From Morinoia aosen (lineage: Eukaryota; Arthropoda; Malacostraca; Amphipoda; Talitridae): 64,000 nucleotides of DNA. Numbering within the stretch: position 1 is the stretch's first letter; every line of letters starts with the position of its first letter. Below the pieces are notes generated by a model, which was not told where the DNA came from, made no database searches, and saw only the letters and a program-made list of their open reading frames with translations. The translations under genes and the position numbers were made by a program. Below are positions 1 to 51,808 of the stretch, one piece after another. The stretch spans positions 68,881,581-68,945,580 of the forward strand of contig CM059576.1 of NCBI GenBank assembly GCA_030386875.1, read 5' to 3'.

Positions 1-3000
1 CTGCCACTAGTTACTGCACCTGCAGGTGTTGTCTGCCACTAGCTACTGCATCTGCAGGTGTTGTTGTCAGCCACTAGTTACTGCGTCTGCAGGTGTTGTT
101 GTCTGCCACTAGTTACTGCGTCTGCAGGTGTTGTCTGCCATTAGTTACTGCGTCTGCAGGTGTTGTCTGCCACAAGTTACTGCATCTGCAGGTGTTGTTG
201 TCTGCCACTAGTTACCGCGTCTGCAGGTGTTGTAGTCTGCCACTAGTTACTGCGTCTGCAGGTGTTGTTGTCTGCCACTAGTTACTGCATGTGCAGGTGT
301 TGTTGTCTGCCACTATAGTTACTGCGTCTGCAAATGTTGTTGTCTGCCACTAGTTACTGCGTGTGCAGGTGTTGTTGTCTGCCACTAGTTACTGCGTCTG
401 CAAATGTTGTTGTCTGCCACTAGTTACTGCGTCTGCAGGTGCTTTTGTCTACAACTAGTTACTGCTTCTGCAGGTTTTGTTGTCTGCCACTATTTACTGC
501 GTCTGCAGGTGTTGTCTGCCACTAGCTACTGCGTCCGCAGGTGTTGTTGTCTGCCTCTAGTTACTGCGTCTGCAGGTGTTGTTGTCTTCCACTAGTTACT
601 GCGTCTGCAGGTGTTGTCTGCCACTAGTTACTGCGTCTGCAGGTGTTGTCTGCCACTAGCTACTGCGTCTGCAGGTGTTGTTGTCAGCCACTAGTTACTG
701 CGTCTGCAGGTGTTGTTGTCTGCCACTAGTTACTGCGTCTGCAGGTGTTGTCTGCCATTAGTTACTGCGTCTGCAGGTGTTGTCTGCCACTAGCTATTGC
801 GTCTGCAGGTGTTGTCTGCCATTAGTTACAGCGTCTGCAGGTGTTGTCTGCCACTAGTTACTGCATCTGCAGGTGTTGTCTGTTACAAGTTACTGCGTCT
901 GCAGGTGTTGTCTGCCACTAGTTACTGCGTCTGCAGGTGTTGTCTGCCACTAGTTACTGCGTCTGCATGTGTTGTCTGCCACTAGTTACTGCGTATGCAG
1001 GTGTTGTTGTCTGACACTAGTTACTGCGTCTGCAGGTGTTGTCTGCCACTAGTTACTGCGTCTGCAGATGTTGTTGTCTGCCACTAGTCACTGCGTCTGC
1101 ATGTGTTGTTGTCTGCCACTAGTTACTGCGTCTGCATGTGTTGTTGTCTGCCACTAGTTACTGCGTCTGCAAATGTTGTTGTCTGCCACTAGTTACTGCG
1201 TCTGCAGGTGCTTTTGTCTACAACTAGTTACTGCTTCTGCAGGTTTTGTTGTCTGCCACTAGTTACTGCGTCTGCAGGTGTTGTCTGCCACTAGCTACTG
1301 CGTCCGCAGGTGTTGTTGTCTGCCACTAGTTACTGCGTCTGCAGGTGTTGTTGTCTGCCACTAGTTACTGCGTCTGCAGGTGTTGTCTGCCACTAGTTAC
1401 TGCGTCTGCAGGTGTTGTCTGCCACTAGCTACTGCGTCTGCAGGTGTTGTCAGCCACTAGTTCCTGCGTCTGCAGGTGTTGTTGTCTGCCACTAGTTACT
1501 GCGTCTGCAGGTGTTGTCTGCCATTAGTTACTGCGTCTGCAGGTGTTGTCTGCCACTAGTTACTGCGTCTGCAGGTGTTGTCTGCCACTAGCTACTGCGT
1601 CCGCAGGTGTTGTTGTCTACCACTAGTTACTGCATCTGCAGGTGTTGTTGTCTGCCACTAGTTACTGCGTCTACAGGTGTTGTCTGCCACTAGTTACTGC
1701 ACCTGCAGGTGTTGTCTGCCACTAGCTACTGCGTCTGCAGGTGTTGTTGTCAGCCACTAGTTACTGCGTCTGCAGGTGTTGTTGTCTGCCACTAGTTACT
1801 GCGTCTGCAGGTGTTGTCTGCCATTAGTTACTGCGTCTGCAGGTGTTGTCTTCCACTAGTTACTGCATCTGCAGGTGTTGTTGTCTGCCACTAGTTACCG
1901 CGTCTGCAGGTGTTGTAGTCTGCCACTAGTTACTGCGTCTGCAGGTGTTCTTGTCTGCCACTAGTTACTGCATGTGCAGGTGTTGTTGTCTGCCACTATA
2001 GTTACTGCGTCTGCAAATGTTGTTGTCTGCCACTAGTTACTGCATGTGCAGGTGTTGTTGTCTGCCACTAGTTACTGCGTCTGCAAATGTTGTTGTCTGC
2101 CACTAGTTACTGCGTCTGCAGGTGCTTTTGTCTGCAACTAGTTACTGCTTCTGCAGGTTTTGTTGTCTGCCACTAGTTACTGCGTCTGCAGGTGTTGTCT
2201 GCCACTAGCTACTGCGTCCGCAGGTGTTGTTGTCTGCCTCTAGTTACTGCGTCTGCAGGTGATGTTGTCTTCCACCAGTTACTGCGTCTGCAGGTGTTGT
2301 CTGTCACTAGTTACTGCGTCTGCAGGTGTTGTCTGCCACTAGCTACTGCGTCTGCAGCTGTTGTTGTCAGCCACTTGTTATTGCGTCTGCAGGTGTTGTC
2401 TGCCACTAGCTACTGCGTCCGCAGGTGTTGTTGTCTGCCACTAGTTACTGCGTCTGCAGGTGTTGTTGTCTGCCACTAGCTACTGCGTCTGCAGGTGTTG
2501 TCTGCCACTAGTTACTGCGTCTGCAGGTGTTGTCTGCCACTAGCTAGTGCGTCTGCAGGTGTTGTTGTCAGCCACTAGTTACTGCGTCTGCAGGTGTTGT
2601 TGTCTGCCACTAGGTACTGCGTCTGCAGGTGTTGTCTGCCATTAGTTACTGCGTCTGCAGGTGTTGTCTGCCACTAGCTATTGCGTCTGCAGGTGTTGTC
2701 TGCCATTAGTTACAGCGTCTGCAGGTGTTGTCTGCCACTAGTTACTGCATCTGCAGGTGTTGTCTGTTACAAGTTACTGCGTCTGCAGGTGTTGTTGTCT
2801 GCCACTAGTTACTGCGTCTGCAGGTGTTGTCTGCCACTAGTTACTGCGTCTGCAGTTGTTGTCTGCCACTAGTTACTGCGTCTGCAGGTGTTGTTGTCTG
2901 ACACTAGTTACTGCGTCTGCAGGTGTTGTCTGCCACTAGTTACTGCGTCTGCAGATGTTGTTGTCTGACACTAGTTACTGCGTCTGCAGGTGTTGTCTGC

Positions 3001-4368
3001 CACAATTTACTGCGTCTGCAGGTGTTGTTGTCTGCCACTAGTTACTGCGTCTGCATGTGTTGTTGTCTGCCACTAGTTACTGCGTCTGTATATGTTGTTG
3101 TCTGCCACTAGTTACTGCGTCTGCATGTGTTGTTGTCTGCCACTAGTTACTGCGTCTGCATGTGTTGTTGTCTACCACTAGTTACTCTGTGTGCAGGTGT
3201 TGTTGTCTGCCACTATAGTTACTGCGTCTGCAAATGTTGTTGTCTGCCACTAGTTACTCCGTGTGCAGGTGTTGTTGTCTGCCACTAGTTACTGCGTCTG
3301 CAAATGTTGTTGTCTGCCACTAGTTACTGCGTCTGCAGGTGCTTTTGTCTACAACTAGTTACTGCTTCTGCAGGTTTTGTTGTCTGCCACTAGTTACTGC
3401 GTCTGCAGGTGTTGTCTGCCACTAGCTACTGCGTCCGCAGGTGTTGTTGTCTGCCTCTAGTTACTGCGTCTGCAGATGTTGTTGTCTTCCACTAGTTACT
3501 GCGTCTGCAGGTGTTGTCTGCCACTAGTTACTGCGTCGGCAGGTGTTGTCTGCCACTAGCTACTGCGTCTGCAGTTGTTGTTGTCTGCCACTAGTTACTG
3601 CGTCTGCAGGTGTTGTTGTCTGCCACTAGTTACTGCGTCTGCAGGTGTTGTCTGCCATTAGTTACTGCGTCTGCAGGTGTTGTCTGCCACTAGTTATTGC
3701 GTCTGCAGGTGTTGTCTGTCATTAGTTACTGCGTCTGCAGGTGTTGTCTGCCACTAGGTACTGCGTCTGCAGGAGTTGTTGTCTGCCACTAGTTACTGCG
3801 TCTGCAAGTGTTGTCTGCCATTAGTTACTGCGTCTGCAGGTGTTGTCTGCCACTAGTTATTGCGTCGGCAGATGTTGTCTGCCATTAGTTACTGCGTTTG
3901 CAGGTGTTGTCTGCCACTAGTTACTGCGTCTACAGGTGTTGTCTACCACAAGTTACTGCGTCTGCAGGTGTTGTTGTCTGCCACTAGTTACTGCGTCTGC
4001 AGGTGTTGTCTGCCACTAGTTACTGCGTCTGCAGGTGTTGTTGTCTGACACTAGTTACTGCGTCTGCAGGTGTTGTCTGCCACTAGTTACTGCGTCTGCA
4101 GGTGTTGTTGTCTGACACTAGTTACTGCGTCCGCAGGTGTTGTCTGCCACTAGTTACTGCGTCTGCAGGTGTTGTTGTCTGACACTAGTTACTGCGTCTG
4201 CAGGTGTTGTCTGCCACTAGTTACTGCGTCTGCAGGTGTTGTCTGCCACTAATTACTGCGTCTGCAGGTGTTGTCTGCCACTAGTTACTGCGTCTGCAGG
4301 TGTTGTTGTCTGCCACTAGTTACTGCGTCTGCAGGTGTTGTCTGCCACTAGTTACTGCGTCTGCAGAT
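1..4368 (+). repeat. 32/35-bp satellite array
   Basis: About 130 tandem units of 32 bp, or 35 bp where an extra TGT extends GTTGT to GTTGTTGT. Nearly every unit carries ACTAGT and CTGCAG palindromes around TTACTGCGT. Sequence variants recur in order (CTATAG, AAATGTTG, GCTTTTG, GTCCGCAG), which shows higher-order repeats. The 60-95 aa open frames here are artefacts of a unit length that cycles through all frames without stops. The same unit occurs at 7661-7735, 10137-10618, 16470-16643 and 23048-23461. Confidence 0.9.
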
Positions 4369-5102
4369 GTGTTCACAGCAATGTCCCCACCACCATCAGC
4401 TAATGTCTCATTACCTACGGCTAAACGATGCAATTTTGTATATTCAGGCAGTAAGCTGCTTAGTAAATATGGCGGCGTGCATACAAAAACCGACCTCAGG
4501 TGTGTGCTTGGAAGTCAGTTATCTCAGATGACATAACGCAACTCAACCCTGCAGTTATTCTTGTCAACACTGAGCATTTCAGCATTTAACAACTAATACT
4601 CAACAATATTCGACGTACAGAATGCCATTAATGTAAGGCCCCGCGAGCGGCTGTAAAAGTTTTTTGCTCTAACACAAATACTTTGCTGATTTTAGCAAAC
4701 AACGCGAATGCCCGAACCCAGTCTAGTTGCCGTGTGTTCATTTGAGAACTGAAAATAATAACCTGAAATGGCTTTGTAATAACGATTATTTTTAAAATAT
4801 GTACTTTGGGAGGCTTAAATAATTCGTTTCTTTCGAGCAAATAAGCCTATTTTGTTACATTCACACAAAATTAGTCAAAGCATTATAAAAATTTGTTGAG
4901 CCTAACTAATTTATTTTAATGATTAGGCATTGTAACCAAATTGAAGGAATTTTCACTTTACTTCTCAATTCCACTGAACAACAACATGCTGACTTCCACT
5001 GTTGGTGCTTTATCGCTTCTTACATTTACATAAATGTAAATATCAATACATTACCGTTTTGTTCTTATTGTTACGTTGTGGTATTTGTTGTTATGGTGCT
5101 GG
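4369..5102 (+). repeat. FB arm spacer module (left arm of FB-1)
   Basis: This non-tandem stretch links the satellite to the 17-bp array. It is recognisable at both ends: TGTGTTCACAGCAATGTCCC at the satellite side and CAACAACATGCTGACTTCCA near the minisatellite side. The same module recurs inverted at 9413-10136, direct at 16644-17356, inverted at 19190-19880 and direct at 23462-24195. That constancy shows it is an element body and not unique flank. No coding sequence is supported. Confidence 0.8.
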
Positions 5103-6620
5103 TGTAGGGACGGTGCTGGTGTAGGTACGGTGCTGGTGTAGGTACGGTGCTGGTGTAGGTACGGTGCTGGTGTAGGTACTGTGCTGGTGTAGGTACGGTG
5201 CTGGTGTAGGTACGGTGCTGGTGTAGGTACGGTGCTGGTGTAGGTACGGTGCTGGTGTAGGTACGGTGCTGGTGTAGGTACTGTGCTGGTGTAGGTACGG
5301 TGCTGGTGTAGGTACGGTGCTGGTGTAGGTACGGTGCTGCTGTAGGTACGGTGCTGGTGTAGGTACGGTGCTGGTGTAGGTACGGTGCTGGTGTAGGTAC
5401 GGTGCTGGTGTAGGTACTGTGCTGGTGTAGGTACGGTGCTGGTGTAGGTACGGTGCTGGTGTAGGTACGGTGCTGGTGTAGGTACGGTGCTGGTGTAGGT
5501 ACTGTGCTGGTGTAGGTACGGTGCTGGTGTAGGTACGGTGCTGGTGTAGGTACTGTGCTGGTGTAGGTACGGTGCTGGTGTAGGTACGGTGCTGGTGTAG
5601 GTACGGTGCTGCTGTAGGTACGGTGCTGGTGTAGGTACGTTGCTGGTGTAGGTACGGTGCTGGTGTAGGTACGGTGCTGGTGTAGGTACTGTGCTGGTGT
5701 AGGTACGGTGCTGGTGTAGGTACGGTGCTGGTGTAGGTACGGTGCTGGTTTAGGTACGGTGCTGGTGTAGGTACGGTGCTGGTGTAGGTACGGTGCTGGT
5801 GTAGGTACGGTGCTGGTGTACGTACGGTGCTGGTGTAGGTACGGTGCTGCTGTAGGTACGGTGCTTGTGTAGGTACGGTACTGGTGTAGGTACGGTGCTG
5901 GTGTAGGTACGGTGCTGGTGTAGGTACAGTGCTGGTGTAGGTACGGTGCTGGTGTAGGTACGGTGCTGGTGTAGGTACGGTGCTGGTGTAGGTACGGTGC
6001 TGGTGTAGGTACGGTGCTGGTGTAGGTACGGTGCTGCTGTAGGTACGGTGCTTGTGTAGGTACGGTGCTGGTGTAGGTACGGTGCTGGTGTAGGTACGGT
6101 GCTGGTGTAGGTACCGTGCTGGTGTAGGTACGGTGCTGGTGTAGGCACTGTGCTGGTGTAGGTACGGTGCTGGTGTAGGTACGGTGCTGGTGTAGGTACG
6201 GTGCTGCTGTAGGTACGGTGCAGGTGTAGGTACGGTGCTGGTGTAGGTACGGTGCTGCTGTAGGTACGGTGCTGGTGTAGGTACGGCGCTGGTGTAGGTA
6301 CGGTGCTGGTGTAGGTACGGTGCTGGTGTAGGTACGGTGCTGGTGTAGGTACGGTGCTGGTGTAGGTACGGTGCTGGTGTAGGTACGGTGCTGGATTAGG
6401 TACGGTGCTGGTGTAGGTACGGTGCTGGTGTAGGTACGGTGCTGGTGTATGTACGGTGCTGGTGTAGGTACGGCGCTGGTGTAGGTACGGTGCTGGTGTA
6501 GGTACGGTGCTGGTGTAGGTACGGTGCTGGTGTAGGTACGGTGCTGGTGTAGGTACGGTGCTGGTGTAGGTACGGTGCTGGTGTAGGTACGGTGCTGGTG
6601 TAAGTACGGTGCTGGTGTAA
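5103..6620 (+). repeat. 17-bp minisatellite array
   Basis: Roughly 89 tandem units of GTACGGTGCTGGTGTAG with scattered single-base variants. Because 17 is not a multiple of 3 and the unit has no stop on the minus strand, it yields a 524-residue open frame of a 17-residue repeat. This has no start context or conservation argument and is treated as non-coding. The array sits at the inner end of the FB-1 left arm. Confidence 0.9.
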
Positions 6621-6870
6621 CACCACGTCGGACAGGACCCACCACCTACCCCCCCCCCCCCACCTACCCAACACTCACCCGCTGCACACGCGCTGGGGAG
6701 GTCAAGTTTGGTTGGGGAAGCTGTGAGTTGCCTGGGGAATGATAATCACGAAAATATCGTACAAATAAAAATAACAGCAATTACTGCATTACTGCTGTAA
6801 ATAAGATGACACGGAAATCAATAGTAAAATTTCTTCCCACTCATAATGCCCTAAACCAGAACATGGAGGT
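6621..6870. repeat. FB inner module with poly-C and Y block
   Basis: Starts with the junction CACGTCGGACAGGACCCACC that also follows the 17-bp array of FB-2 at 18669. A C13 run follows. The part from about 6755 (trailing the AATGCAGTAAT-like segment) is found inverted at about 18975-19130, so it is a shuffled module of the FB family. No gene seen. Confidence 0.6.
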
Positions 6871-7190
6871 TGGTGATCCTAAACCTGGAGTAGCGGATGT
6901 TCTAAACCTGGAGTTGCGGATGTCCTAAACCTGGAGTTGCGGATGTCCTAAACCTGGAGTAGCAGTTGTCCTAAACATGGAGTAGCGGATGTCCGAAACC
7001 TGGAGTAGCGGATGTCCTAAACCTGGAGTAGCGGATGTCCGAAACCTGGAGTAGCAGATATCCTAAACCTGGAGTAGCGGATGTCCGAAACCTGGAGTAG
7101 CGGATGTCCCAAACCAGGTGTAGCGGATGTCCTGAACCTGGAGTAGCGGATGTCCTAAACCTGGAGTAGCGGATGTCCCAAACCTGGGTT
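6871..7190 (+). repeat. 23-bp tandem repeat
   Basis: About 13-14 units of a 23-bp motif centred on CCTAAACCTGGAGTAGCGGA, with variants (CCGAAACC, CCCAAACC). Two inverted units occur at about 18972-19008 in FB-2, so the repeat belongs to the FB interior. Confidence 0.85.
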
Positions 7191-8403
7191 CAAGTATTAC
7201 AAGGGCACCAATAAATACACCGCTAAACAACACTAATCATTACTGAGCGAAATGATAGGTTCGGGTGATGAGAAATGAAACAAATTTCTTTAAAAATCAT
7301 ATACTAAACACAAATCAAATTCCCATAGTTAGTCTTCGAAAACGTAAAACAGTTATTTCAATGCCATATGGGCAAGTTGATGTCACATGACTGAAATTTT
7401 CAGTAAATGATATAGTGAACAATTGGAATGCAATAAAGAATCAAGTTGATGAGATCAATGTGTTGAGTTGTTAAATTAAGTGGTGCAAGTTTTTGCATTT
7501 TGATGATGTCAATTTCGACTGACCAAATTCAGATGAGCCGCTTGTCAGATATCTATAATTATGTGTGATGTCAATAATTTTGGTGAGCAGATATCGGCTA
7601 CTCTCATGTGCTCTAGCCAGGTAAGAGCGTTTCTTCTTGGTGGTGCGTCCTGGACCGGTGGGTGTTTGTCACTAGTTACTATGCTGCAGGTGTTGTCGTC
7701 TGCCACTAGTTACTGCGTCTGCAGGTGTGTTCACGGCAATTCTATCATAGGTAACTAATATTTTCATAATCAGCTAATATGTCTGCCTACGGCTAAACGA
7801 TGCAATTTTGTATATTCATAGAGTAAGCTGTATAGGAAAATTTCGGCGTGCTGGCAGTAACTGACCACAGATTTGTGTTCAGAAAGTAAAGTTTCTTAAC
7901 ACAAATTACTCTAACTCAAACGAAAAAGCTCTTTTAAGCCTAACAGAGCCCACTCCTGTCATAGGGCTAATGCTCAACAGGTAATGCTGACATCGTTCTC
8001 AGGAGTCAAACATGACTCTCAAAAATAGTTTATATCACGGTCAAACTTGCAGACAAAAGCATTCTAGCTTGCCAGCAGTTGACGCTCAGAATAATTTAGC
8101 AAATCTAATATTGTAGGATTGAAAAACACGAATGAAAAATTCTTTATTTATTAAAGTTCAAATTCCACTTGAAAAGAATGCGTTCATAATTGGTTTTCGG
8201 TTATTCATTCATTTCAAATTGAGTAAATTTCATGGCATCGTGCTTGTATTGTTTACGACCTGTAACGGTAACTAATTCATTTTCTGGTGGAGTGACCACC
8301 TCTCTCCCAGTGGTGATGCTTTTCGCATTATTTTCACGTCTTATGTTTTTAGTGTTAAAATAAATTCTCTAGCATTTGTTTTGTGAATATATACATTATA
8401 AAT
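7191..8403. repeat. FB-1 central modules W and V with two stray satellite units
   Basis: Module W (about 7365-7650, with GATGAGCCGCTTGTCAGATA) is repeated in the same orientation at about 18695-18975. Two satellite units (about 7661-7735) follow, then a diverged spacer start. Module V (about 7735-8040) recurs inverted at about 24625-24860 in FB-3. 8040-8400 has no recognised content. There is no convincing open frame. Confidence 0.6.
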
Positions 8404-8562
8404 TTGATGCTGGTGTAGGTATGGTGCTACATCCCTGTACCTACACCAGCACCGTACCTACACCAGCACCGTACCTACACCAGCACCGTACCTACACCAG
8501 CACTGTACCTACACCAGCACCGTACCTACACCAGCACCATACCTACAGCAGCACCGTTGTTA
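8404..8562. repeat. 17-bp array with inverted-repeat junction
   Basis: One plus-oriented 17-bp unit meets minus-oriented units across a conserved loop GTGCTACATCCCTGTACC, forming a hairpin. The equivalent junction is at about 19140-19185 in FB-2 and 24205-24260 in FB-3. Confidence 0.75.
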
Positions 8563-9297
8563 AATAGTAGGTTGTGGCGTATCCACATTGGGCGTTAAAT
8601 TTATAGATATTTGGTTTTGGCAATATCCTCTTTGGGTGCCAAATTGTAGATAGTTGCAATTTTTGCTGGTCCTTCTTGGGAGCCAGCGAATTGATTATTT
8701 AGGTGGGCTAGTCCTGTTTCAGCCCGATTGAAAACTAGATTGGTCCTTCTTGGGAGCCGAAATTTCAGAGTCTTCTTATCCCGGAAGGATCTTCCTGATA
8801 TCTTCAGGGAAAATGGAAAGTCAGGTTTTGGCGACTTAATTTATTAGTTGGGGCTTGCCCACAGGTTTTCAGGAGGCGAATTATTTTTCCAGCAGTTCTT
8901 GTAGTTTTTCTCTCGTAGAGTTTTTGAGATGCTTTCAAGCTGTGTTTTCAAGCGTCGCGAGCTTTTCACGCTAGTAATGCAGGCGTCGAAAGTTAGAGCC
9001 GAAATGAAATTCGAGCTGTTAAAATTTAAGCCGATATAAAAATCAAGCTTTGAAGTTTTTAGAGCCGAAGAATTTCTGGCTGTTGAAATTTTCGTTTTCG
9101 TATTTCCATTCAAGTTTTCTTCTTAGTTTTGCGATTGAAGTTTTTCTTCTCAAGTATTTCTTTTTCCTTTCAAATTTTGAGGATCGTGATGGAAGTAGGC
9201 TACTCAAGTATCTGTGCTACGAGAGCTTAGTTATGCGAGGAGAATTATTTTCCCTCCGGTTAAATTATATAAGCACAAGTCGGCATTTTTGACAATA
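8563..9297. other. Unassigned FB-1 interior
   Basis: No gene recognised. The phrase GGTCCTTCTTGGGAGCC occurs twice (about 8670 and 8742), so a short internal duplication is present. Open frames under 90 aa on both strands have no recognisable domain. Confidence 0.4.
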
Positions 9298-10618
9298 GCC
9301 TGACAACCGTACCTACACCAGCACCGTACCTACACCAGCACCGTACCTACACCACCACCGTACCTACACCAGCACCGTATCTTCACCAGCACCGTACCTA
9401 CACCAGCACCGTAACAACAAATACCACAACGTAACAATAGGAACAAAACGGTAATGTATTGATATTTACATTTATGTATATGGAAGAAGTGATATAGCAT
9501 CAACAGTGGAAGTCAGCATGTTGTTGATCAGTGGAATTGAGAAGTAAAATGAAAAATCCATCCATTTAGTTCCGAAAACTAATCATAAAAATAAATCAGT
9601 TAGCCTTCATGGCCTTCAAAAGGTTTTCCACTAATTTCGGGTGCATGTAACAAAATATGCTTATTTATCCGATGGAAACATATTTGTTCAGCCTCCTAGA
9701 GTTTAGAATTTTGGAATAATCGATATTGCAAAACAATATCAGGTTATGATTTTGTTTTCTCATAAATATAAACGGCAACTAGACCGAGTCCGAGCAATTG
9801 CTTGGCTGCAAATGGTCCGTCTGTAAATCAGAAAGTCTAAAACTTTTTGCGGCCGCTCGCGGCGCCCTTCGCAATCGACATTCTGTTCGACACGTATCGT
9901 TGTGTGGTATTGATTACACGCTGAATTGCACATCATTGAAAATAATACCTGCAAAAGTTGAGTTAGGTTCTGTCATTGAGATGACTGACTTCGAAGCCCA
10001 CACCTGAGGTCAGTTTTTGTAAGCACGCCGCCATTTTTACTAAGCAGCTTACTGCCTGAATATACAAAATTGCATCGTTTAGCCGCAGTTAATGAGACCT
10101 TAGCTGATGGTGGTGGGGACATTGCTGTGAACACATCTGCAGACGCAGTAACTAGTGGCAGACAACACTTACAAACGCAGTAACTAGTGGCAGACAACAA
10201 GGCCTGCAGACGCAGTAACTCGTGGCAGAAAACATATTCAGACGCAGTAACTAGAGGCAGACAACACTTGCAGACCCAGTAACTAGTGGCAGACAACAAG
10301 GCCTGCAGACGCAGTAACTAGTGGCAGACAACAAGGCCTGCAGACGCAGTAACTAGTGGCAGAAAACATCTTCAGACGCAGTAACTAATGGCAGACATCT
10401 TCAGACGCAGTAACTAGTGGCAGACATCTGCAGACGCAGTAACTAGTGGCAGGTAACACCAGAAAACGCAGTAACTAGTGGCAGGCAACACCTGCACACG
10501 CAGTAACTAGTGGCAGACACCAGCAGACGCAGTAACTAGCGGCAGAGAACAACACCTGCAGACGCAGTAACTAGTGGCAGACAACAACACCTGCAGACGC
10601 AGTAACTAGTGGCAGCTG
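9298..10618 (-). repeat. Right arm of FB-1 (17-bp array, spacer, satellite)
   Basis: Read on the minus strand this repeats the left arm: satellite units (10618-10137), spacer (10136-9413) and a short run of 17-bp units (9412-9298). The spacer matches 4369-5102 nearly base for base over the satellite-proximal 180 bp. The satellite here is under 0.5 kb, against over 4.3 kb on the left, so the arms have changed length unequally. Confidence 0.8.
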
Positions 10619-10857
10619 TCACTACACTGTCACAAAAAGTAATTAGTGTGGACAATTTATACGATGAATTGAACAAATTTGATCAACACCAGATACCTGG
10701 AAACAAAAAGCATATAAATGACTTGTTCATTTTGTAGAAATGGAAGAAAATAAATTGGTTCGTTCGCAATTAAATTTTTATTGTATTGTTCATGAATAAT
10801 TATTGTATTAATTCATTTTCTTGAATGTTCGGTAAAGTTGAGGACAGCAAACTAATC

Positions 10858-11262: not shown

Positions 11263-11573
11263 TGGCCTCAAAATATCCCAAATGTTTTTCAACCTTACAT
11301 GTATGTGTGCACATATGTGTGTACTAAACTGACAACTAGCATTTTACTAAAGATAATGGTCATTTTCTGTTCACTCTCAACTTGTAACATTACCTAACTC
11401 GTCATCTCTTTATTATTGCAAAGCATTCATGTACCAACTATACATTTGTTGTACGATCATCCATTTATATTTAAATAAAATGCTTATTAACTAACGACCG
11501 TTATGTTAAAATTGTTGAATTAGAAATACAAAACTTATAATCTTCTTGGTCCTCATGCTTATGCGTACATATA

Positions 11574-13555: not shown

Positions 13556-14603
13556 CAGCCAAAGTAGTTTATTTTACTTATTTATTAGAGGAATTATTTT
13601 ATTTCAATACCATCAGTGTTAACTTTTCTATTTTTGCGATCAGTATTATTCAGTCCGATGTGCCTTATTGTCTTCACTGTAATTATTGAAAATTGAACCA
13701 AATCTACCACTGGGTTAAAATTTAGCTCTCTTAAAAAATAATATGGTAAAATACACTTGCGTCCACACAAAGCTAGGTAGAAGTTGGAGTTAAGGGGCCG
13801 GTAACAGCCTGGCCAAGTTTGGGTGGGTTGGTTTATGTTAGGCAGCGTACCGTTCTGTGATGTCGACAGCGAGCGAAATTATTGAAAGGCTCTTGGAAAA
13901 ACAGGTAAATTGAGGTGGAAGCCTAAACTGAAGTTTGCATTACAATTATTGGAGGTATTTTCATTATTCTAACCATCATTATGATTTTGGGAATAAGTGT
14001 GAAATCGTTACCTAGTACGTGGACAACCAGTAATGACAATGCAATAAATAGCAATGCATTAGATCATACACAGAAGTAACGATAATGGCCACAGCAAAAA
14101 ACACTCAATACGATCGATGGGGCTCCAACGTGAAAGATATTTCTATTCCATAGAAACATATATGGTGAAAATGTTCCGTTTTCAAAATATTGCAGTTACC
14201 GTAAAAAATAAATTTTGAATATATCGAGGTAATTGTATCAAAAACTGTTTTCAATGAAAATAAAGGCAAATTTCGAGCAATAAATTGGTAATCAATTACA
14301 TACTGAGATTTCGAAGATTAATTTCCATGCTTCATTTTACCTGATATAAATTCATTTGTTATAATTTATGACGCTAGATATTTTAAAACAGATTCCGTCG
14401 TGCAGGAAATTTAAGCCATAGTGAATATACCCAAAAAAAAAAACCTATTAACTTTTGGAGCCATCAGAGGCCTCTCTCTCAACGGAACCAATGCTATAGA
14501 ATCGCGCCAACATCCGAGTGTAGGCGTCTCTCAGAGATCCCTGCGGTGGGGGAGTTGTCGGCGAGCTATGGTTGTGTTGGATTGTTTTGTGGATGTGAAC
14601 TTC
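13556..14603. other. Unassigned AT-rich stretch
   Basis: No gene or recognised repeat seen. Open frames are short and lack domains. It lies between the LINE-B tail and a 24-bp minisatellite. Confidence 0.4.
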
Positions 14604-14795
14604 TACAGGCATGTTGAATGAGCTACTGTAGACATATTGATTTGTGCTACTGTAGACATGCTGATTTGTGCTACAGTAGACATGTTGATATGTGCTGCTG
14701 TAGACATGTTGATTTGTGCTACTGTAGACATGTTGACTTGTGCTACAGTAGACATGCTGATTTGTGCTACTGTAGACATGATGGTGTATCCTATA
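14604..14795 (+). repeat. 24-bp minisatellite (left, plus)
   Basis: About 8 units of a 24-bp motif containing CTGTAGACATGTTGATTTGT. An inverted short array of the same unit lies at 15822-15895, bracketing a Penelope-like remnant. The overlapping Cys/His-rich open frames are repeat artefacts. Confidence 0.85.
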
Positions 14796-14829
14796 ATATA
14801 CAAGCCGATTTACACTACAATAGACACGC

Positions 14830-15660
14830 TCCTACCAACCCTTCCCAGCTCCTTCTAGCGCACCAAGAGCTCTCTGCGCAACCAATGTGTTCAATAAACA
14901 AAAAAGCTTCACATAACCGCAGGCAATACGAACAATACGCTGAATACAATTGGAATGATAAGAAACTAATGATAGTTCTCAGCTCTTCATTACAATCTAC
15001 GTTACAAAAGACATTCTGCAAACACGGCGTGTGCATAGTACTCGACACACAGGCTTTATTTACGTAGACATTTGCTTTGTTTGAGATCATGCCTGGCCTG
15101 CCGTTATCGCTTCCTTATTGGCGATGACCCGCGGATGTAGGAGCGATGTGTTGATATGCAGCTTAGATATCTGGATAATGCGTTGGTTTCGTGCCGATCG
15201 GAAGATGAAGCTGCTTGTTTTAACGAATATATCAATGCATCTCTCCCTAATATTAAATTTACTTTAGAAATAGAGCAATCTATTCCTATATTAAAATTAG
15301 AATTAAAGTAGAGCTAAATGGGCAAATTCTGTACGTTGATGCACTCGTGAAAAAGTCCAACTCCAGGCTCATTGCCTCTGTCTTCAGGAAGCCAACGTTT
15401 ACAGGTCTTGGTACGAACTGTTTCAGTTATAGTTACTAGGGATGTGTCAAATGTTGTGCTAATACTCTGCTCCATTGAGCATACCTTGTGTCTGGGACTT
15501 TCGAAATATTCCTCATTGAAAATTAACTAATTAGAAAATTACCGGTAAACGATGAGTTCACTAAACTTATCAGTGATAATTCCTTTCAAAAAGTTCTGGA
15601 TAAAAAATACTCTTCCTATATTGTCACCTGGAGCGAGCAAAGCAGAAAAATTAGATAGAA
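14830..15660 (+). pseudogene. Penelope-like element reverse transcriptase remnant (copy 1)
   Basis: A broken PLE reverse transcriptase. Around 15165 a frame reads RYLDNALV, in place of the RYVDD-type catalytic box, followed by NIKFTLEIEQ. After a frameshift, from about 15329, another frame reads VKKSNSR and FRKPTFTGLGT, the typical PLE palm/thumb block. At 15545-15600 a further frame has EFTKLI-like and VLDKKYSS text. The second catalytic Asp is Asn in both copies. The frame has several stops and shifts. The same sequence occurs inverted at 21760-22510, so the segment was duplicated after it decayed, or both came from one dead source. The upstream part (14830-15160) has no recognised domain. 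Confidence 0.65.
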
Positions 15661-15821
15661 TTACAGTTTTTGATTTATATGAACTCTGAACTAGAAAAGG
15701 AAGTCGTATCTCTGAGCAGTTAATTTTTAATTCAGTTGATTCCATAGTGTTTTGTAGAATTAGTTTTAATATTGGTTCATTTTTAGAAAAAGAAAGACTG
15801 GATAAGTGCCTGTGTCTAAGC

Positions 15822-15895
15822 ATGTCTATTGTAGCATAAATCAGTGTCTACTGTAGCATAAATCAGCATGTCTACTGTAGCATGAATTAGCATTT
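15822..15895 (-). repeat. 24-bp minisatellite (right, inverted)
   Basis: Three units of the 24-bp motif in the opposite orientation to 14604-14795. Together they form terminal inverted tandem arrays around the PLE remnant. Confidence 0.75.
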
Positions 15896-16469
15896 CACTT
15901 GCTTTCCTCTCCTTCTCATTCGGTGATTCGAAATTAATTGTCAGCAATTCAATGTTCCATTATAAATGAAAATAAATTCCACTCGGTGCATGTAGTACCG
16001 TTGCTGTTACATAAACCTGTTTCAATAAGCCATTAATTTACCTGTTCTAATAAGCCAGTTATTTAGGACGCCGTGCAAAGTCCAATAATGATATTTAATA
16101 CATCGACCGCGTGTGTTGCAGGGACAGCGTTGAACTCAATTATTCGAGTTGGTCACGTTATTCCAACGTTCTCTATTAATATAGAAATATTTTTTACAGT
16201 GACTAATTAATTAATACATTGCACCGGTATGTGGGAGTGGATTGATCAATTCAGCGAAAGAAAATGGAGACGTATACATTATAACCTTAGGAAATACGAA
16301 TGTGTTTTCCAATGGAATATTATTTATTTGAGCACACAGCCGTCAAAATAGGCGGGATTCTACATTTTTCTTAAGTTACACTTCCAGATGTGGGTGAAAT
16401 CAAATGTATATGAAATATACAGTTATTAAGCATCCTTCATGAGCGTGAAAAAAAGACGTGATCAGCCAG
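15896..16469. repeat. Flank with inverted partner at 20710-20960
   Basis: No gene is seen. About 16240-16469 (including GGCGGGATTCTACATTTTTC and AAGCATCCTTCATGAGCGTG) is repeated inverted at about 20710-20960. FB-2 and PLE debris therefore lie inside another inverted pair. 15896-16240 is unassigned. Confidence 0.5.
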
Positions 16470-19400
16470 GCGTCTTCAGGTGTTGTTGTCTGCCACTAGT
16501 TACTGCGTCTTCAGGTGTTGTCTGCCACTAGTTACTGCGTCTGCAGGTGTTGTCTGCCACTAGTTACTGCGTCTGCAGGTGTTGTCTGCCACTAGTTACT
16601 GCGTCTACAGGTATTGTCTGCCACTAGTTACTGCGTCTGCAGATGTGTTCACAGCAATGTCCCCACCACCGTCAGCCAATGTTTCATTACCTGCGTCTAA
16701 ACGATGCAATTTTGTATATTCAGGCAGTAAGCTGATAGTAAAAATGGCAGCGTGCTTACAAAAACTGACCCCAGGTGTGTGCATGGAAGTCGATTTTATC
16801 AGATGACATAACCTAACTTAACCCATGCAAATAATCTCTTTAATATTAAGCATTTCAGAGTAATCATTAACACATAGCTTTACTTCGACCTAGAGTGACG
16901 ATATGGTCAGGCGCCGCTAGCGGTTGCAATAATTATTTAACTTTTAAAACATGTAATTTAAACGTTAGCTTAGCTTAGTGAATGCTCGAACCCAGTCTAG
17001 TTGCCGTATATTCACTTGAGAAGTTAAAATATTAACCTGACATTGTTTGTAATATCGATTTTTTTGAAATTATCAACTTTGAGAGGCTATAAAATTTGTT
17101 TCCATTGAATAGATAAGCATATTCTGTTACATTCACACGAAAATGATCAGAAATATCTAAACAATTTTGAAGGCTAACTAATTTATTTTATGATCAGTCA
17201 GTTTAATTGAATTCAAGGAATTTTCACTTTACTTCTCAATTCCACTGAACAACAACATGCTGACTTCCACTGTTGATGCTATATCGCTTCTTACATTTAC
17301 ATAAATGTAAATATCAATACATTACCGTTTTGTTCGTATTGATACGTTGTGGTATTTGTTATGGTGCTGGTGTAGGTACGGTGCTGGTGTGGGTACGGTG
17401 CTGGTGTGGGTACGGTGCTGGTGTAGGTACGGTGCTGGTGTAGGTACGGTGTTGGTGTAGGTACGGTGCTGGTGTGGGTACGGTACTGGTGTGGGTACGG
17501 TGCTGGTGTGGGTACGGTGCTGGTGTGGGTACGGTGCTGGTGTAGGTACGGTGCTGGTGTAGGTACGGTGTTGGTGTGGGTACGGTGCTGGTGTAGGTAC
17601 GGTGTTGGTGTGGGTACGGTGCTGGTGTAGGTACGGTGCTGGTGTAGGTACGGTGCTGGTGTAGGTACGGTGTTGGTGTATGTACGGTGCTGGTGTGGGT
17701 ACGGTGCTGGTGTGGGTACGGTGCTGGTGTAGGTACGGTGCTGGTGTAGGTACGGTGCTGGTGTAGGTACGGTGTTGGTGTAGGTACGGTGCTGGTGTGG
17801 GTACGGTGCTGGTGTGGGTACGGTGCTGTTGTGGGTACGGTGCTGGTGTAGGTACGGTGCTGGTGTAGGTACGGTGCTGGTGTAGTTACGGTGTTGGTGT
17901 AGGTACGGTGCTGGTGTAAGTACGGTGCTGGTGTAGGTATGGTGCTGGTGTAGGTACGGTGCTGGTGTAGGTACGGTGCTGGTGTGGGAACGAAGCTGGT
18001 GTAGGTACGGTGCTGGTGTGGGTGCGGTGCTGGTGTAGGTACGGTGCTGGTGTAGGTACGGTGCTGGTGTAGGTACGGTGCTGGTGTAGGTACGGTGCTG
18101 GTGTAGGTACGGTGCTGGTGTAGGTACGGTGCTGGTGTGGGTACGGTGCTGGTGTAGGTACGGTGCTGGTGTAGGTACGGTCCTGGTGTAAGTACGGTGC
18201 TGGTGTAGGTACGGTGCTGGTGTAGGTACGGTTCTGGTGTAGGTACGGTGCTGGTGTAGGTACGGTGCTGGTGTAGGTACGGTGCTGGTGTGGGTACGGT
18301 GCTGGTGTAGGTACGGTGCTGGTGTGAGTTCGGTGCTGGTGTAGGTACGGTGCTGGTGTAGGTACGGTGCTGGTGTAGGTACGGTGCTGGTGTAGGTACG
18401 GTGCTGGTGTAGGTACGGAGCTGGTGTGGGTACGGTGCTGGTGTAGGTACGGTGCTTGTGTAGGTACCGTGCTGGTGTAGGCACAGTGCTGGTGTAGGTA
18501 CGGTGCTGGTGTAGGTACGGTGCTGGTGTAGGTACGGTGCTGGTATAGCTACGGTGCTGGTATAGGTACAGTGCTGGTGTAGGTACGGTGCTGGTGTAGG
18601 TACGGTGCTGGTATAGGTACGGTGCTGGTGTAGGTACGGTGCTGGTGTAGGTACGGTGATGGTGCAACAGCACGTCGGACAGGACCCACCACCCAATTTT
18701 GATGTCACATGACTCAAATTTTCACTAAATGGTATAATGAACAATTGAAATGCGATATTAAATCAATGTGATGCGATAATTTTTTTTGAATTGTTGAATT
18801 AAGTGTTGCAAGATTTTGCATTTTGATGATGTCAATTTCGAATGACCAAATTCAGATGAGCCGCTTGTCAGATATCCATAGTTATGTGTGATGTCAACCA
18901 TTTTGGTGAGCAGATAGCGGCTACTGTCATGTGCTCTAGCCAGGTAAGAGCGTTTCTTCTTAGTGGTACATCCGCTACTCCAGGTTTAAGACATCCACTA
19001 CTCCAGGTTTAGGATCACCAACCTCCATGTTCTGGGTTAGGGCATTATGAGTGAGAAGATATTTTACTATTGATTTCCGTTTCATCTTATTTACAGCAGT
19101 AATGCAGCAGTTTTTCGATACGTACATTAAAATTTTTGTTCTGGTGTAGGTACGGTGTTACATCTCTGTACCTACACCAGCACCAGAACAACAAATACCA
19201 CAACGTAACAATAAGAACGAAACGGTAATGTATTGATATTTACATTCATGTAAATGTAAGAAGCGATATAGCGTCAACAGTGGAAGTCAGCATGTTGTTG
19301 TTCAGTGGAATTGAAAAGGAGAGTGCAGAATTATTTGCCTTCAATTATGATGACAGAATATCAAAATAAATTAGTTAACCATCAAACTTGTTTCCATTGT

Positions 19401-19880
19401 TTCAACTGATATCGTGTGAATGTCAACTTTCTACAATAATATAATGAATGTCGTCGTCAAAAACAAGTTTCGCAGTTTTTTTATGCATGCTATTATGAGA
19501 TTATAGCCATTATTGAACACTGTTATTTATATATTCCGAGCTGTTCAATAAAATGTATGTAAATTAGTACCGACTCCAGCATATATCATAAAAGTTGGTG
19601 AAACGTTCTTCAACCCTTAAGCAATTTTACAGCCGATTGCGACGCCTTATAAACAGTCACGTATGCAGCGCATTATGACGAATTTGTTCACTGTGTCACC
19701 GATAATTTTTGCGGTAGTTGTCTCTTTCAAAATAGTTCAGTATGTGGGAAAATACCTGCACGGTTCAATTACGTTATGTCATGTAAGATAACTGACTTCC
19801 AAGCACACACGTGAGGTCAGTTTTTTTAAGCACGCCGCCATTTTTTCTATGCAGCTTACTGCCTAAAAATATAAAAAATT
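16470..19880. mobile_element. FB-2: composite fold-back element
   Basis: Left arm: satellite (16470-16643), spacer (16644-17356), 17-bp array (17357-18668). Centre: CGTCGGACAGGACCCACCAC junction, module W (about 18695-18975), inverted 23-bp units and inverted Y module (to about 19130), then the hairpin junction (19140-19185). Right arm: inverted spacer (19190-19880), cut off before its satellite by unrelated PLE-like DNA. The order of central modules differs from FB-1, so they have been shuffled. Confidence 0.75.
17357..18668 (+). repeat. 17-bp minisatellite array of FB-2
   Basis: About 77 units of the same 17-bp motif as 5103-6620, with a common GGTGTGGGTAC variant that is rare in FB-1. The two ~460-residue minus-strand open frames across it are stop-free repeat artefacts. 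Array-specific variants indicate local homogenisation after the copies separated. Confidence 0.9.
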
Positions 19881-20709
19881 GCAGAATAAAAAGAAGAACC
19901 AGAGTAAAAACGAACATTACATTCATTGCAAACGTTTTGGAATTAAAATTCCATCATCAGTGATGGAACAGGAGAGAAAAAAATTGTTTATTTTACCAAA
20001 CAAAAACCATACATACTCCACAAAATTCTCTAAATGTCTAAAAAAGTCTACTTTGTTCATTCATATTCAAACAATAGCTTACTCCTAACTCACACAAGCA
20101 CACATGTACACGCTAATTCAGATACATCAGCGAAACACACTATGCATACACACACACACACACATACAGAATTACGGCAGTAGGTGGGAGCAATTGATAA
20201 CTTTACGGCATTAATGTCTTTGTTGAGGTTAGGTTTATGAGTGAATATGAAAAGGGACTCTAGAATTCTAAGGTCATGCTCACTGTTAGTTCGGTATAAG
20301 GTTAAAAAATTAGTGTTTTTGAATGAATGGTGTGAATTTGAATGGTTTGAATTGAATTTTTACCGACTATAGACCCATATGTGCATCTCTCAGACTGCGT
20401 TTGCATAAATTTACCAAAAGTTATATGTTTACACACAAAGTTGCGTTCATTGCAGGCATTCATGTTACATTACGGTACAAATGTGGTGATAGTTTCCTCT
20501 GATTGATTGAAATATTATCGGAGTGATCATCTTTCCCTGAGGGAATATCGATAGTTCACGTCTCATCTATTACTATGTAATCAAACGGCTATTGACTGCA
20601 GGTGTGTCGCCTTACACTATTAAATAAATTAATAAATATATAAATATAAGTTTTTGTGCGTTATTTGTCCTGTGTAGTTACGGTGAAAATCTCAGTGAAC
20701 TCATTACAT
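19881..20709. repeat. PLE-like terminal debris and microsatellite
   Basis: At 19945-19975 the minus strand carries CTGATGATGGAATTTTAATT followed by CCAAAACG, a decayed form of the hammerhead-like core at 49147. At about 20258 the text GACTCTAGAATTCTAAGGTC parallels the palindrome arms at 27098 and 46660. A (CA)n run lies at 20149-20164. No gene is supported, and the remainder is unassigned. Confidence 0.45.
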
Positions 20710-20949
20710 TGCTTGGTCCCTCTTTTTCACACTCTTGAAGGATACTTAATGACCGTATCTGGGATACGAATATTTTAATCACAGGTACAACAAGGATATA
20801 TATATTTGATGTGATGTCATGCACATCTGGAATCTTAATTTAGGAAAAATTTCGAATCCCGCCATTTTTGACGTCTATGTTTACTAGTGAATAATATTCC
20901 TTGGAAAACACAGTCTTATTACCTTAAATTATATTCTATCCATCTCCAT

Positions 20950-21165
20950 TTTCGATTTTCTCTGTTGGGTATAGGGAAAAAATTCCAAGCACAATAATCC
21001 ACTCTACCCAGGGGTCTGAATTGGGTACCGGTCTTGACCGGGGGAAAGCGTCATGGCGTCCTGGTGTTAGTTATAAGGCTTTTGAAAATCCAATGTACAA
21101 GGTGATATTTATCAGGCTTGATTGGAAACAAAGCATCCATTGATGCCTTCATTATTATTCTTCCA
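20950..21165 (+). mobile_element. tRNA-derived SINE, 5'-truncated (copy 3)
   Basis: Matches the body of the SINEs at 36585-36865 and 47420-47670: GTTGGGTATAGGG, then GGTACCGGTC, then TCAGGCTTGATTGGAAACAA near the 3' end. The tRNA-like head with A and B boxes is missing. Confidence 0.6.
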
Positions 21166-21454
21166 AAGAATTGATCCATAATTTCGCACTTTGCCGGATC
21201 GGTGTAATAATAAACTAGTTAGCATAGGAAATATTTTCTAAAAACATAGAAAATGTTCAGCATGTAATGGTGCTGAACGCACTCGATCAACCAAGAAGTG
21301 CAATAGTCATATTGTCATATAGTCATTGCTTAACATTTGATATTGTTCATTTTGCCCATTGAACGTTGTCACTTCAACACACACAGTCGATGTATTCAAT
21401 TTCATCATTGGACTTTGTACAGCATCCTAAATTACTGGCGTGTAAAACGTGTAT
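21166..21454. other. Unassigned
   Basis: No gene or recognised repeat seen. Confidence 0.3.
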
Positions 21455-21757: not shown

Positions 21758-22510
21758 TGATCAAAGAGAAGGAGAGGAAGAGTATTTTTTATCCAGAATT
21801 TTTTGAAAGAAATTTTCATTGATGAGTTTAGCGAACTCATTGTTAACCGGTAATTTTCTAATCAGTTAATTTCCAATTAGGAATATTTCGAAAGTCCCAG
21901 ACACAAGGTATGCTCAATGGAGCAGAGTATTAACACAACATTTGACACATCCCTAGTAACTATAACTGAAACAGTTCGTACCAAGACCAGTGAACGTTGG
22001 CTTCCTGAAGACAGAGGTAATGAGCCTGGAGTTGGAATTTTTCACGAAAGCATCAACGTACAGAATTTGCCCATTTAGCTCTACTTTAATTCTAATTTTA
22101 ATATAGGAATAGATTGCTCTATTTCTAAAGTAAATTTAATATTAGGGAGAGATGCATTGATATATTCGTTAAAACAAGCAGCTTCATCTTCCGATCGGCA
22201 CGAAACCAACGCATTATCCAGATATCTAAGCTGCATATCAACACATCGCTCCTACATCCGCGGGTCATCGCCAATAAGGAAGCGATAACGGCAGGCCAGG
22301 CATGATCTCAAACAATGCAAATGTCTACGTAAATAAAGCCTGTGTGTCGAGTACTATGCACACGCCGTGTTTGCAAAATGTCGTTTGTAGCGTAGATTGT
22401 AATGCAGAGCTGAGAACTATCATTAGTATCTGATCATTCCAATTGTATTCAGCGCATTGTTCGTATTGCCTGCGGTTATATGAAGCTTTTTTGTTCATTA
22501 AGCGCATCGG
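21758..22510 (-). pseudogene. Penelope-like reverse transcriptase remnant (copy 2, inverted)
   Basis: Inverted duplicate of 14830-15660 sharing the same lesions, including a YLDN catalytic box (about 22213-22224 on the minus strand) and the FRKPTFTGL-type block around 21990 with similar frame breaks. It is noncoding as it stands. Confidence 0.65.
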
Positions 22511-23047
22511 TTCGTTTTCCAAAAATCGGTTCATTTTTTAGGAGGAAGAAAGACTGGTTAGGCGCATGTGGAGTGGATGTGTCTATGCGTGACTGCTGCA
22601 TGCAGACTTGGTTGTACCAAACTTCAACAATTCATTAGACACAGCCAACATTCATGAATTCCCCTCAGAACTCACCCAAACAAGCGGCCCAACTATCCCA
22701 CCTTTGCCGTCTCGGTGTTGCATTACACTCCAATGAGCCGCTCAGCCTGTAAAAATACATTAAGCTCAAGCAGAGCAAATTCAGCGTAATTGTTGCATTT
22801 GGGTATTGGTTTCGCACCCCCTGAGTCATAAAAACTCGAAAAATTGAAAATTCCTTCGATGTTGAGTTTCAACAAATTTATTCATGTTCACATTTATTTA
22901 AGTATTTCGATATTGATATACACGATATCTGTTGGAAATCGTATGAAATTCAATGTCAGACTACATTATTTTATTAATTTTGCATAAAAATATATGTGAA
23001 GTAATTTTCAACTCTAGCTTATGATTCCATTGAATCCGCCATTGTTG
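22511..23047. other. Unassigned stretch before FB-3
   Basis: No gene or recognised repeat seen. Confidence 0.3.
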
Positions 23048-24860
23048 TGTTGTCTGCAATAGTTACTGCATCTGCAGGTGTTGTCTGCATAGTTACTGCG
23101 TCTGCAGGTGTTGTCTGCCACTAGTTACTGCGTCTGCAGGTGTTGTCTGCCACTAGTTACTGCGTCTGCAGGTGTTGTCTGCCCTTAGTTACTGCGTCTG
23201 CAGGTGTTGTCTGCCCTTAGTTACTGCGTCTGCAGGTGTTGTCTGCCCTTAGTTACTGCGTCTGCAGGTGTTGTCTGCCACTAGTTACTGCGTCTGCAGG
23301 TGTTGTCTGCCATTAGTTACTGCGTCTGCAGGTGTTGTCTGCCACTAGTTACTGCATCTGCAGGTGTTGTCTGCCACTAGTTACTGCGTCTGCAGGTGTT
23401 GTCTGCCACTAGTTACTGCGTCTGCAGGTGTTGTCTGCCACTAGTTACTGCGTCTGCAGATGTGTTCACAGCAATGTCCCCACCACCATCAGTTAATTTC
23501 TCATTACCTACGGCTAAACGATGCAATTTTGTATATTCAGGCAGTAAGCTGCTTAGTAAAAATGGCGGCGTGCTACAAAAACTGACCTCAGGTTTGTGCT
23601 TGGAGGTCAATTATCTCAGATGTTTTAAGCTAACTCAACCCTCGCAGATATTTTTTATCAATACTGAGCAATTCAGAATATGATAAAAACTGCATAATTG
23701 TACGTAACGTACAAATTGTCGATAGTATGAGGCGCCGCTTGGGGCACTAAAAATTTTGAATATATTTTTATATGCTATTTAACTATCCTATAAAAGGAAT
23801 TGCGAATGCTCGAATCCAGTCTAGTTGCCGTGTATTCAGGTTAGAAGTGAAAATAATAACCTGACATTGTTTTGTAATATCGATTATTCTGAAATATTAA
23901 ACTTTGGGAGGGTGGAAGAATTGGTTTCCATCGAATAAATCAGCATATTTTGTTACATTCACACAAAATGGGTCAAAACAATCAAAATCATTTTCAAGGC
24001 TAACTAATTAATTTTTATGATCAGTCGTCTGAGTCAAATTGAATGAATTTTCACTCATTTTTTCAATTCCACTGAACAACAACATGCTGACTTCCACTGT
24101 TGATGCTATATCACTTCTTACATTTACATAAATGTTAATACCATAAACTTCCGTTGCCTTGTTCTTGTTGTTATCACGTTATGGTATTTGTTGCTATGGT
24201 GCTGGTGTTGTTATGGTGCTGGTGTAGGTGCAGGGATGTAGCTCCGTACATACACCACCACCAAAATATCAATGTATATATGAAACAAAATATTAAAAAC
24301 TGATTTATACAGCAACAAAAACATAGGAAGCGAAAACAATGCAAATAGCATCAACAATGACAGGCGGCATGTTGTCTTACGGAACATTTCTGTAGGGGTC
24401 GAATGACTATGCCAGAAAATGAATTAGTAAACATTGTTAAAAAAATGCACTGAAAAAGAAATTAACCTAATATGAAATGATTGAATGAATAACATCGAAA
24501 ATAAATTATGAAGGCATTACCCCCTTGTGGACTCGAACTTTAATAAATAAACAATCTTTCACTTCTATTATTGAATCATAAGATATTACATTTCGGCAAC
24601 TGTTTCCATATCACAACGTTTTCGTTTACCTGTTAGAACGTGATATAAACTATTTTTGGGAGTCATGGTAGACTCCCATGATGTCAGCACAACCTGTTGA
24701 GCATTAGCCCTAAGAGAGGAGTGGTCTCTGCTGGGCTTAAAGGATCCTTTAAAAAGATATTCGTTTGAGTTAGAGTACTTTGGGTTAAGAAACTTGACTT
24801 TCTGAACACAAATCTGTGGTCAGTTACTGACAGCAGGCCAAAATTTTATTATACAGCTTC
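23048..24860. mobile_element. FB-3: smaller composite fold-back element
   Basis: Satellite (23048-23461, about 13 units), spacer (23462-24195), fewer than three 17-bp units (24196-24232), the hairpin junction in inverse orientation (to about 24260), then an unassigned part and inverted module V (about 24625-24860). It shows that the junction and spacer persist even when the 17-bp array is almost absent, so the array is likely a secondary expansion. Confidence 0.7.
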
Positions 24861-30420: not shown

Positions 30421-30429
30421 CGGTTAAAG

Positions 30430-51806: not shown

Positions 51807-51808
51807 TA

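Follow-up and report, generated by a model that had tools for sequence, protein, structure and literature searches.

What kind of sequence carries two different tandem arrays in each of its long inverted arms, and how it came to be arranged, are the questions raised by a 64,000-nucleotide stretch of the amphipod Morinoia aosen (hereafter the window; positions 68881581–68945580 of contig CM059576.1, here C21, in assembly GCA_030386875.1 of 1.99 Gb and 29 contigs). The initial annotation of its first 24,860 bases described three copies of a giant fold-back element (FB-1, FB-2 and FB-3) sharing one ordered arm, namely a 32/35-bp satellite (S), a spacer of ~730 bp and a 17-bp minisatellite (M), and read this as a mobile element that seeds satellite DNA. 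We find the arm dispersed in the same order to at least eight contigs, and hold with moderate confidence that it belongs to an old non-coding foldback-like family, which would have spread and then been reshuffled by recombination at its own arrays and by block duplication.

Dispersal is evident from two short probes. A 40-mer from the outer spacer matches the genome 323 times at up to three mismatches (168 + 155; reversed control, 0), and an exact word of two M units 1191 + 2013 times (control, 0); set against the empty controls, these counts exclude chance genome-wide. One hundred of the 323 matches were listed, and the contig tallies rest on those 100: 97 are exact, on eight contigs (3 on C3, 9 on C4, 1 on C10, 2 on C17, 74 on C21, 3 on C23, 4 on C24 and 1 on C27), so the copies are not all at one locus, and the C10 locus carries the full order given below. 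A genome search with the spacer itself (best 40 of 759 first-look candidates scored) returned 43 matches, comprising the window, 39 of full or nearly full length at 79–83% identity and 3 short ones. Twenty 10-kb loci (L009–L028) were drawn from the best spacer matches and are therefore biased toward full-length spacers close to those of FB-1 (type A); further loci were added on C10 and C4, L001–L008, which repeat the window or other loci, were not counted, and the later loci L034–L054 lie outside the count of 38 spacers that follows. Arrays were called with Tandem Repeats Finder (TRF), arms paired by self-BLAST and spacers aligned end to end.

Among the 38 full-length A spacers of the window and loci, S adjoins the outer side of 35 and M the inner side of 32, with both present at 30 (31, 28 and 26, respectively, of the 34 outside the window), such that the spacer is seldom met without its arrays; where present, the adjoining arrays span 95–4370 bp (S) and 40–2560 bp (M). 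Every S array (58) and M array (41) of 60 bp or longer has a spacer match no more than 3 kb away, in loci that were themselves chosen by spacer. Of the check proposed by the initial annotation, the first part, joint occurrence in one order at many loci, thus came out in its favour, several chromosomes being involved. Pattern scans for S and M in viral contigs, and for S in a genome contig collection, gave no match.

Within the window, TRF and self-BLAST bear out the arrays, lengths and order of the arm, with M arrays of 89.7, 76.6 and 2.2 units in the three copies against the earlier figures of about 89, 77 and under 3. Self-BLAST aligns 3879–5199 with 10615–9306 (inverted, 83%), 4194–6394 with 16470–18662 (direct, 90%) and 3936–5126 with 23047–24229 (direct, 84%). 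The spacer had been described as constant, which holds for its length but not for its sequence: the A arms of the window are only 65–80% identical end to end, and a diverged type, B, shares 46–54% with A and 76% between B copies. Inverted arms do face each other in FB-1 and FB-2, but the centre of FB-1 (1–10615) holds a second, type-B arm (S 7663–7728, spacer 7729–8405, then M/loop/M'), giving the order S-A-M-J-X-Y-S-B-M-loop-M'-A'-S', with its inverted M array split by a 748-bp insert resembling a solo long terminal repeat (LTR; TG...CA, 8558–9305, 5-bp duplication ACCGT). FB-2 (16478–19883) is ordered much like FB-1, except that X is inverted, B is mostly gone and S' has been lost; its right arm, diverged in the middle and without S, reaches ~19883. 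FB-3 (23047–24865), taken to be one arm, has the order S-A-M but is not lone; it represents the loop-side half plus a truncated, inverted type-B arm (24265–24865), so that the second arms of both FB-2 and FB-3 are damaged. A larger inverted repeat encloses FB-2 (14880–15617 with 22512–21775, 96%; 16054–16455 with 21439–20720 in three pieces, 78–85%).

Long inverted arms with tandem repeats of variable length, dispersed in one order over several chromosomes, are what a foldback transposon presents. Outside the arrays the arms hold no long open frame, no intact protein of the element itself was observed, and the remaining 39 kb of the window gave no notable match to S, M or spacer A. In place of S' in FB-2 stands a foreign repeat (19884–20380) that resembles 26500–27160 by eye, a likeness not confirmed by BLAST. 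The features of the window, by position and strand, are these:

1–4370, + strand: S array, outer end of the FB-1 left arm (35/67-bp period, 129.8 copies; runs past the window start)
4370–5095, + strand: type A spacer, FB-1 left (J-side) arm
5086–6619, + strand: M array, FB-1 left (89 units in register; TRF 5095–6619, 89.7 copies)
6618–6650, + strand: J, a recurrent junction following M
6740–7187, + strand: X, with a 23-bp minisatellite
7377–7650, + strand: Y, linker adjoining S of the B arm
7663–7728, + strand: S, ~2 units, start of the B arm
7729–8405, + strand: type B spacer, diverged arm
8437–8557, − strand: inverted M array past the loop (TRF)
8558–9305, no strand assigned: solo-LTR-like insertion TG...CA, duplication ACCGT, splitting the inverted M array
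9306–9413, − strand: inverted M array, FB-1 right arm (TRF)
9412–10133, − strand: type A spacer, FB-1 right (loop-side) arm
10133–10615, − strand: S array, FB-1 right arm (TRF)
10616–14609, + strand: flank beta and beta2 (nested elements 11290–13593; collinear with the left side of the C27 locus)
14880–15815, + strand: reverse-transcriptase-like fragment (inverted copy 21775–22512; no Pfam match)
16054–16462, + strand: flank F (inverted counterpart 20720–21439)
16478–16646, + strand: S array, FB-2 left arm (TRF 16484–16646)
16646–17360, + strand: type A spacer, FB-2 left arm
17363–18664, + strand: M array, FB-2 (76 units in register; TRF 76.6 copies)
18666–19107, + strand: J, Y and inverted X, FB-2
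19184–19883, − strand: type A spacer, FB-2 right arm (diverged middle, S lost)
22671–23046, − strand: flank omega of FB-3 (common to the C10, C27 and C3 loci)
23047–23463, + strand: S array, FB-3 (TRF)
23463–24189, + strand: type A spacer, FB-3
24189–24262, + strand: two M units and conserved loop, FB-3 (TRF 24189–24225, 2.2 copies)
24265–24865, − strand: type B spacer, FB-3 second arm, truncated

The A spacers have diverged unevenly. Mean identity among 27 non-redundant copies (below 95% to one another) is 80.1% (range 72–95%), with conservation of 96–97.5% at alignment columns 101–175 and 651–700 and down to 43% mid-spacer. The tree of all 38 has several tips of ~0.2 (median of all tips 0.068), inner branches that are short and have weak support, and recent copies in tight groups. 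Arm positions, loop-side or J-side (assigned by hand from alignments, 3 of 38 rows unlabelled), cluster on this tree with 6 label changes against ~11.6 in shuffles (0 and 1 of 500 shuffles were as low as observed), although near-copies inflate the clustering and, with 6 changes rather than 1, the two positions are not clean clades. Judged from these alignments, the pattern resembles an early burst in which a unit with distinct ends spread, with local copying at some loci afterwards. The arrays have their own record: of four M variants chosen after inspection of array units, two are private to FB-1 (7/89 and 6/89 units, 0/76 in FB-2) and two to FB-2 (19/76 and 6/76, 0/89 in FB-1), and the long S array, a mixture of 32- and 35-bp units, finds its best self-match in a 1.5-kb block at a lag of 2897 (92.8%; other listed lags at most 91%). 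Taken together, the private variants and this self-match pattern indicate that S and M appear to have grown and homogenised in place.

These data bear on a reading in which the units are no mobile element but a complex macrosatellite or a heterochromatic core duplicon, with segmental duplication, ectopic exchange and inversion as the only means of spread. Such a history would suit the 76% of exact 40-mers (among the matches listed) that fall on C21, concentrated in two regions at 62–78 and 102–105 Mb, as well as the recurrent flanks, the near-identical blocks 36 Mb apart and the head-to-tail spacing of similar length at three loci; it fits poorly with occurrence on eight contigs (again among the matches listed), including the C10 locus with its full order, with the near-equidistance of many copies, with spacer ends far better conserved than their middles, and with the tendency of arm types to hold their place in the unit. 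We regard it as unlikely, but duplication of blocks is observed: L010, L011, L012, L013 and L028, at C21:66.8–66.9 and 102.8–104.3 Mb, match at 95–99% over 7.6–10 kb (each compared with L010, in one or two pieces), flanks included, and the identity runs to the limits of the sequence compared (in L011 as far as the S array reaches). Segmental copying therefore contributes, and copy number reflects old spread together with recent block duplication.

The outer edge of S bears directly on the model of the initial annotation, a foldback DNA transposon comparable to Galileo, FB and Tetris, in which S would close the terminal inverted repeat and the transposase would be encoded elsewhere. The long inverted arms with internal tandem repeats, the exact 40-mers on eight contigs among the matches listed, the burst-like spread and the lack of long open frames in the arms outside the arrays all speak for it, as does Tetris, likewise without coding copies (PMC4079207). 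The target duplications that it predicted at the satellite edge were nevertheless not found: at 12 pairs of S edges (positioned by hand from BLAST, several pairs not being both ends of one whole unit) no direct repeat exceeded 5 bases or was better than in shuffles. Moreover, sequence of the unit continues beyond S. The flank omega (best 40 of 77 candidates scored, 42 matches, 28 of them starting at omega base 1 or 2) meets S at one fixed base in all ten further loci picked from those 28, on C3, C17 and C21, and at the same base in FB-3, C10 and C27; because the same flank continues at the same base in 10/10, S is internal to a dispersed unit at these loci. Other outer edges form further recurrent classes that differ in S phase, with beta in the window and twice on C27 (the S/beta junction is present in 3/3 examined), gamma and Y2 at five loci each, so that the S edges share no common outer terminus. 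The S edge is accordingly rejected as the element's end, a caution that a satellite's outer edge and the end of the element carrying it can be different places. With no transposase in the frames scanned (a subset of frames and loci) beyond a separate mariner-type element, the S-ended transposon is improbable.

Sequence alpha, ~35 bp outside S in L019 and L010, is taken to be nested rather than an integral end, because it contains a non-LTR-type RVT_1 domain, stands off from S by that distance and is absent from FB-3 and C10; the non-LTR retrotransposon sequence near S covers 7508–8600 of L019 and 1–2466 of L010, extents that differ. A 33-bp minisatellite abuts S in L031 (74–1344) and L026 (1–138), loci on C4 and C21. 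J-X-Y was considered as an independent small transposon, of which no free copy is evident: the J end was matched at 41 places with two mismatches allowed, all on contigs with the family, though not every place was read.

Between inverted S arrays lies a domain, D, that occurs in both orientations. What comes after A'-S' in FB-1 is beta, beta2 and then the reverse-transcriptase (RT)-like fragment; on C27 it is omega and an inverted RT-like fragment, and in FB-3 and C10 likewise omega. The far end of the C27 domain carries beta inverted, joined to the S of the following arm at the very base where they meet in the window. Between C10 and C27, a 2.4-kb comparison of omega gives 90.6% identity, against 79.6% for the A' spacers just across S. 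Recombination between inverted S arrays would be the simplest account of the two orientations. The landmarks also recur on one strand. In the window the distance from A to A is 12.3 kb (9.2 kb once two insertions are subtracted) and from A' to A' 9.8 kb (~7.5 kb without a nested block); the corresponding spacing on C10 is 10.05 kb, and on C27 9.9 kb. Such same-strand recurrence suggests that the arms belong to a larger head-to-tail unit recurring every ~7.5–10 kb, though successive units are diverged.

The RT-like fragment is putatively Penelope-like by its motif; three fragments matched 0 Pfam families, and no intact frame was seen. A hammerhead ribozyme motif is expected in some, not all, Penelope-like elements; no Rfam family matched the window at its gathering score, and over 1–25000 at E values up to 1 only two miRNA models did, on simple repeat. 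A 24-bp minisatellite lies inverted on both sides of the fragment (14610–14830 and 15819–15893), extending to 1.4 kb at L030 and ~0.7 kb at L019. That a giant Penelope-like retroelement is built around D, with the arms as its long inverted ends and the fold-backs as joints of head-to-tail neighbours, is highly improbable: the fragment does lie between inverted S arrays in the window (10616–16478), on C27 and on C10, and Terminons, giant Penelope-class elements, form head-to-tail arrays (PMC6431247), but it also occurs at C21:9.1 and 10.8 Mb, away from all 100 listed 40-mer places, its assignment has no Pfam match behind it, and the orientation of D differs between loci.

The foldback-like family that we favour would work as follows. 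Arms exist with three spacer types (A, B and C), the recurrent core is S-A-M-J-(X)-Y-S-B-M-loop-M'-A'-S', and cores alternate with D (omega or beta/Y2, plus the RT-like fragment) between inverted S arrays. An early transposition burst of a master unit would have spread the arms; S and M would then have expanded and homogenised locally through unequal exchange; recombination between inverted S (and M) arrays would flip or swap the enclosed domain, which would place the same arm beside different flanks; and large blocks would later have been copied by segmental duplication, as on C21. Mobility as the origin is partly supported, by the ordered, dispersed arms and the private M variants; the S edge is not a terminus, and no target duplication was found at the 12 edge pairs. 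Much of the present structure comes from block duplication, which is seen, and from array recombination, which is deduced. A more speculative and decidedly doubtful extension is that all of this is one selfish ~10-kb unit with two satellites per inverted arm, in which the S arrays would act as a recombination switch flipping an RT-bearing domain and the fold-backs would be unit joints; if true, satellite growth would be part of how the element diversifies.

Several findings weigh against the favoured account. No terminus was found, nor any target duplication at the 12 edge pairs, and the selected open frames scanned against Pfam contain no transposase of its own, the mariner-type element being separate; since none of the three was found, we infer the transposition step and claim no membership of a superfamily. 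Of the exact 40-mers among the matches listed, 74 of 97 sit on one 121-Mb contig, C21, which fits local copying, as do the near-identical blocks at L010–L013 and L028. The conserved spacer ends could stem from gene conversion rather than selection; array-driven gene conversion as their sole cause is weakened because the four tested M variants are not common to FB-1 and FB-2. One deletion derivative has lost the conserved outer block together with S, a deletion that its copies share, leaving the inverted A spacer fused to omega position 68–69. It has multiplied (by BLAST, 8/8 loci picked from 9 matches starting there carry the inverted A spacer up to the joint), so the outer block is not indispensable for copying. 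Finally, the inverted D on C27 consists only of short pieces (188–345 bases, 74–78%), the right side of FB-2 has no S', and the units are diverged and rearranged, units 1 and 2 on C10 sharing only short matches of 73–74%.

Further elements lie in the window and loci. A mariner/Tc1-type element is present twice (11570–13068 and 51804–53302; 99.5% over 1499 bp), with ~170-bp inverted ends and a 370-aa frame that matches DUF4817 and, below cut-off, DDE_3. A BEL/Pao-type retrotransposon in several frames spans 29222–34625 (Peptidase_A17; RVT_1 and an integrase core below cut-off), and reverse transcriptase and OTU-like protease frames at 39228–44654 on the minus strand are probably one non-LTR retrotransposon. 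At 59230–61332, a 700-aa open frame with many C2H2 zinc fingers lies on an 87-bp tandem repeat of 14.3 copies. Frames for an LTR-retrotransposon RNase H and integrase zinc-binding domain lie within an arm at L022 (4354–5600).

Fold-backs with direct subrepeats in their arms, as here, include FB/NOF of Drosophila melanogaster and TU of sea urchins, which, by contrast, have precise termini with 8–9-bp duplications. In the portions of the literature that our search reached, no element with two different arrays per arm was found. Tm1, a Mutator/foldback family, also has composite inverted ends of variable length; its target duplications of 9 bp and the Phantom-like transposase of some members were not seen here (PMC3169594). 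Terminons resemble the present units in being large and composite, with an RT domain and head-to-tail arrays, but they are telomeric and joined by telomeric repeats, whereas the places listed here are mostly interstitial, and the RT domain is a putative one (PMC6431247). Closest in kind are Tetris and Galileo, both foldback-like, array-bearing and prone to rearranged copies. Galileo, of the P superfamily, has long, internally repetitive inverted ends and chimeric copies, and in one subfamily repeat number varies independently between the two arms; its authors suggest a behaviour similar to that of segmental duplications, but some copies carry transposase sequence and the inverted repeats in D. 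mojavensis measure 18–1,250 bp (PMC3573991, PMC3688188). Tetris, from D. virilis, is likewise non-coding, with long inverted repeats whose tandem repeats expand to satellite-like arrays and with modular, rearranged copies; it differs in having one ~220-bp array per arm, arms of at most 1.7 kb and 8–10-bp target duplications (PMC4079207), whereas arms here bear two arrays of short units and come with three spacer types, the composite unit is larger, and no duplication was found. The tendency of foldback elements to generate satellite DNA is, according to the Tetris authors, a matter that remains for investigation (PMC4079207), and in the present genome there are hundreds of copies whose arms have two independent arrays and whose S arrays run from 0.1 to >4 kb; their flanks reveal the sites of exchange, and array growth, arm conservation and inversion between arrays can be measured directly.

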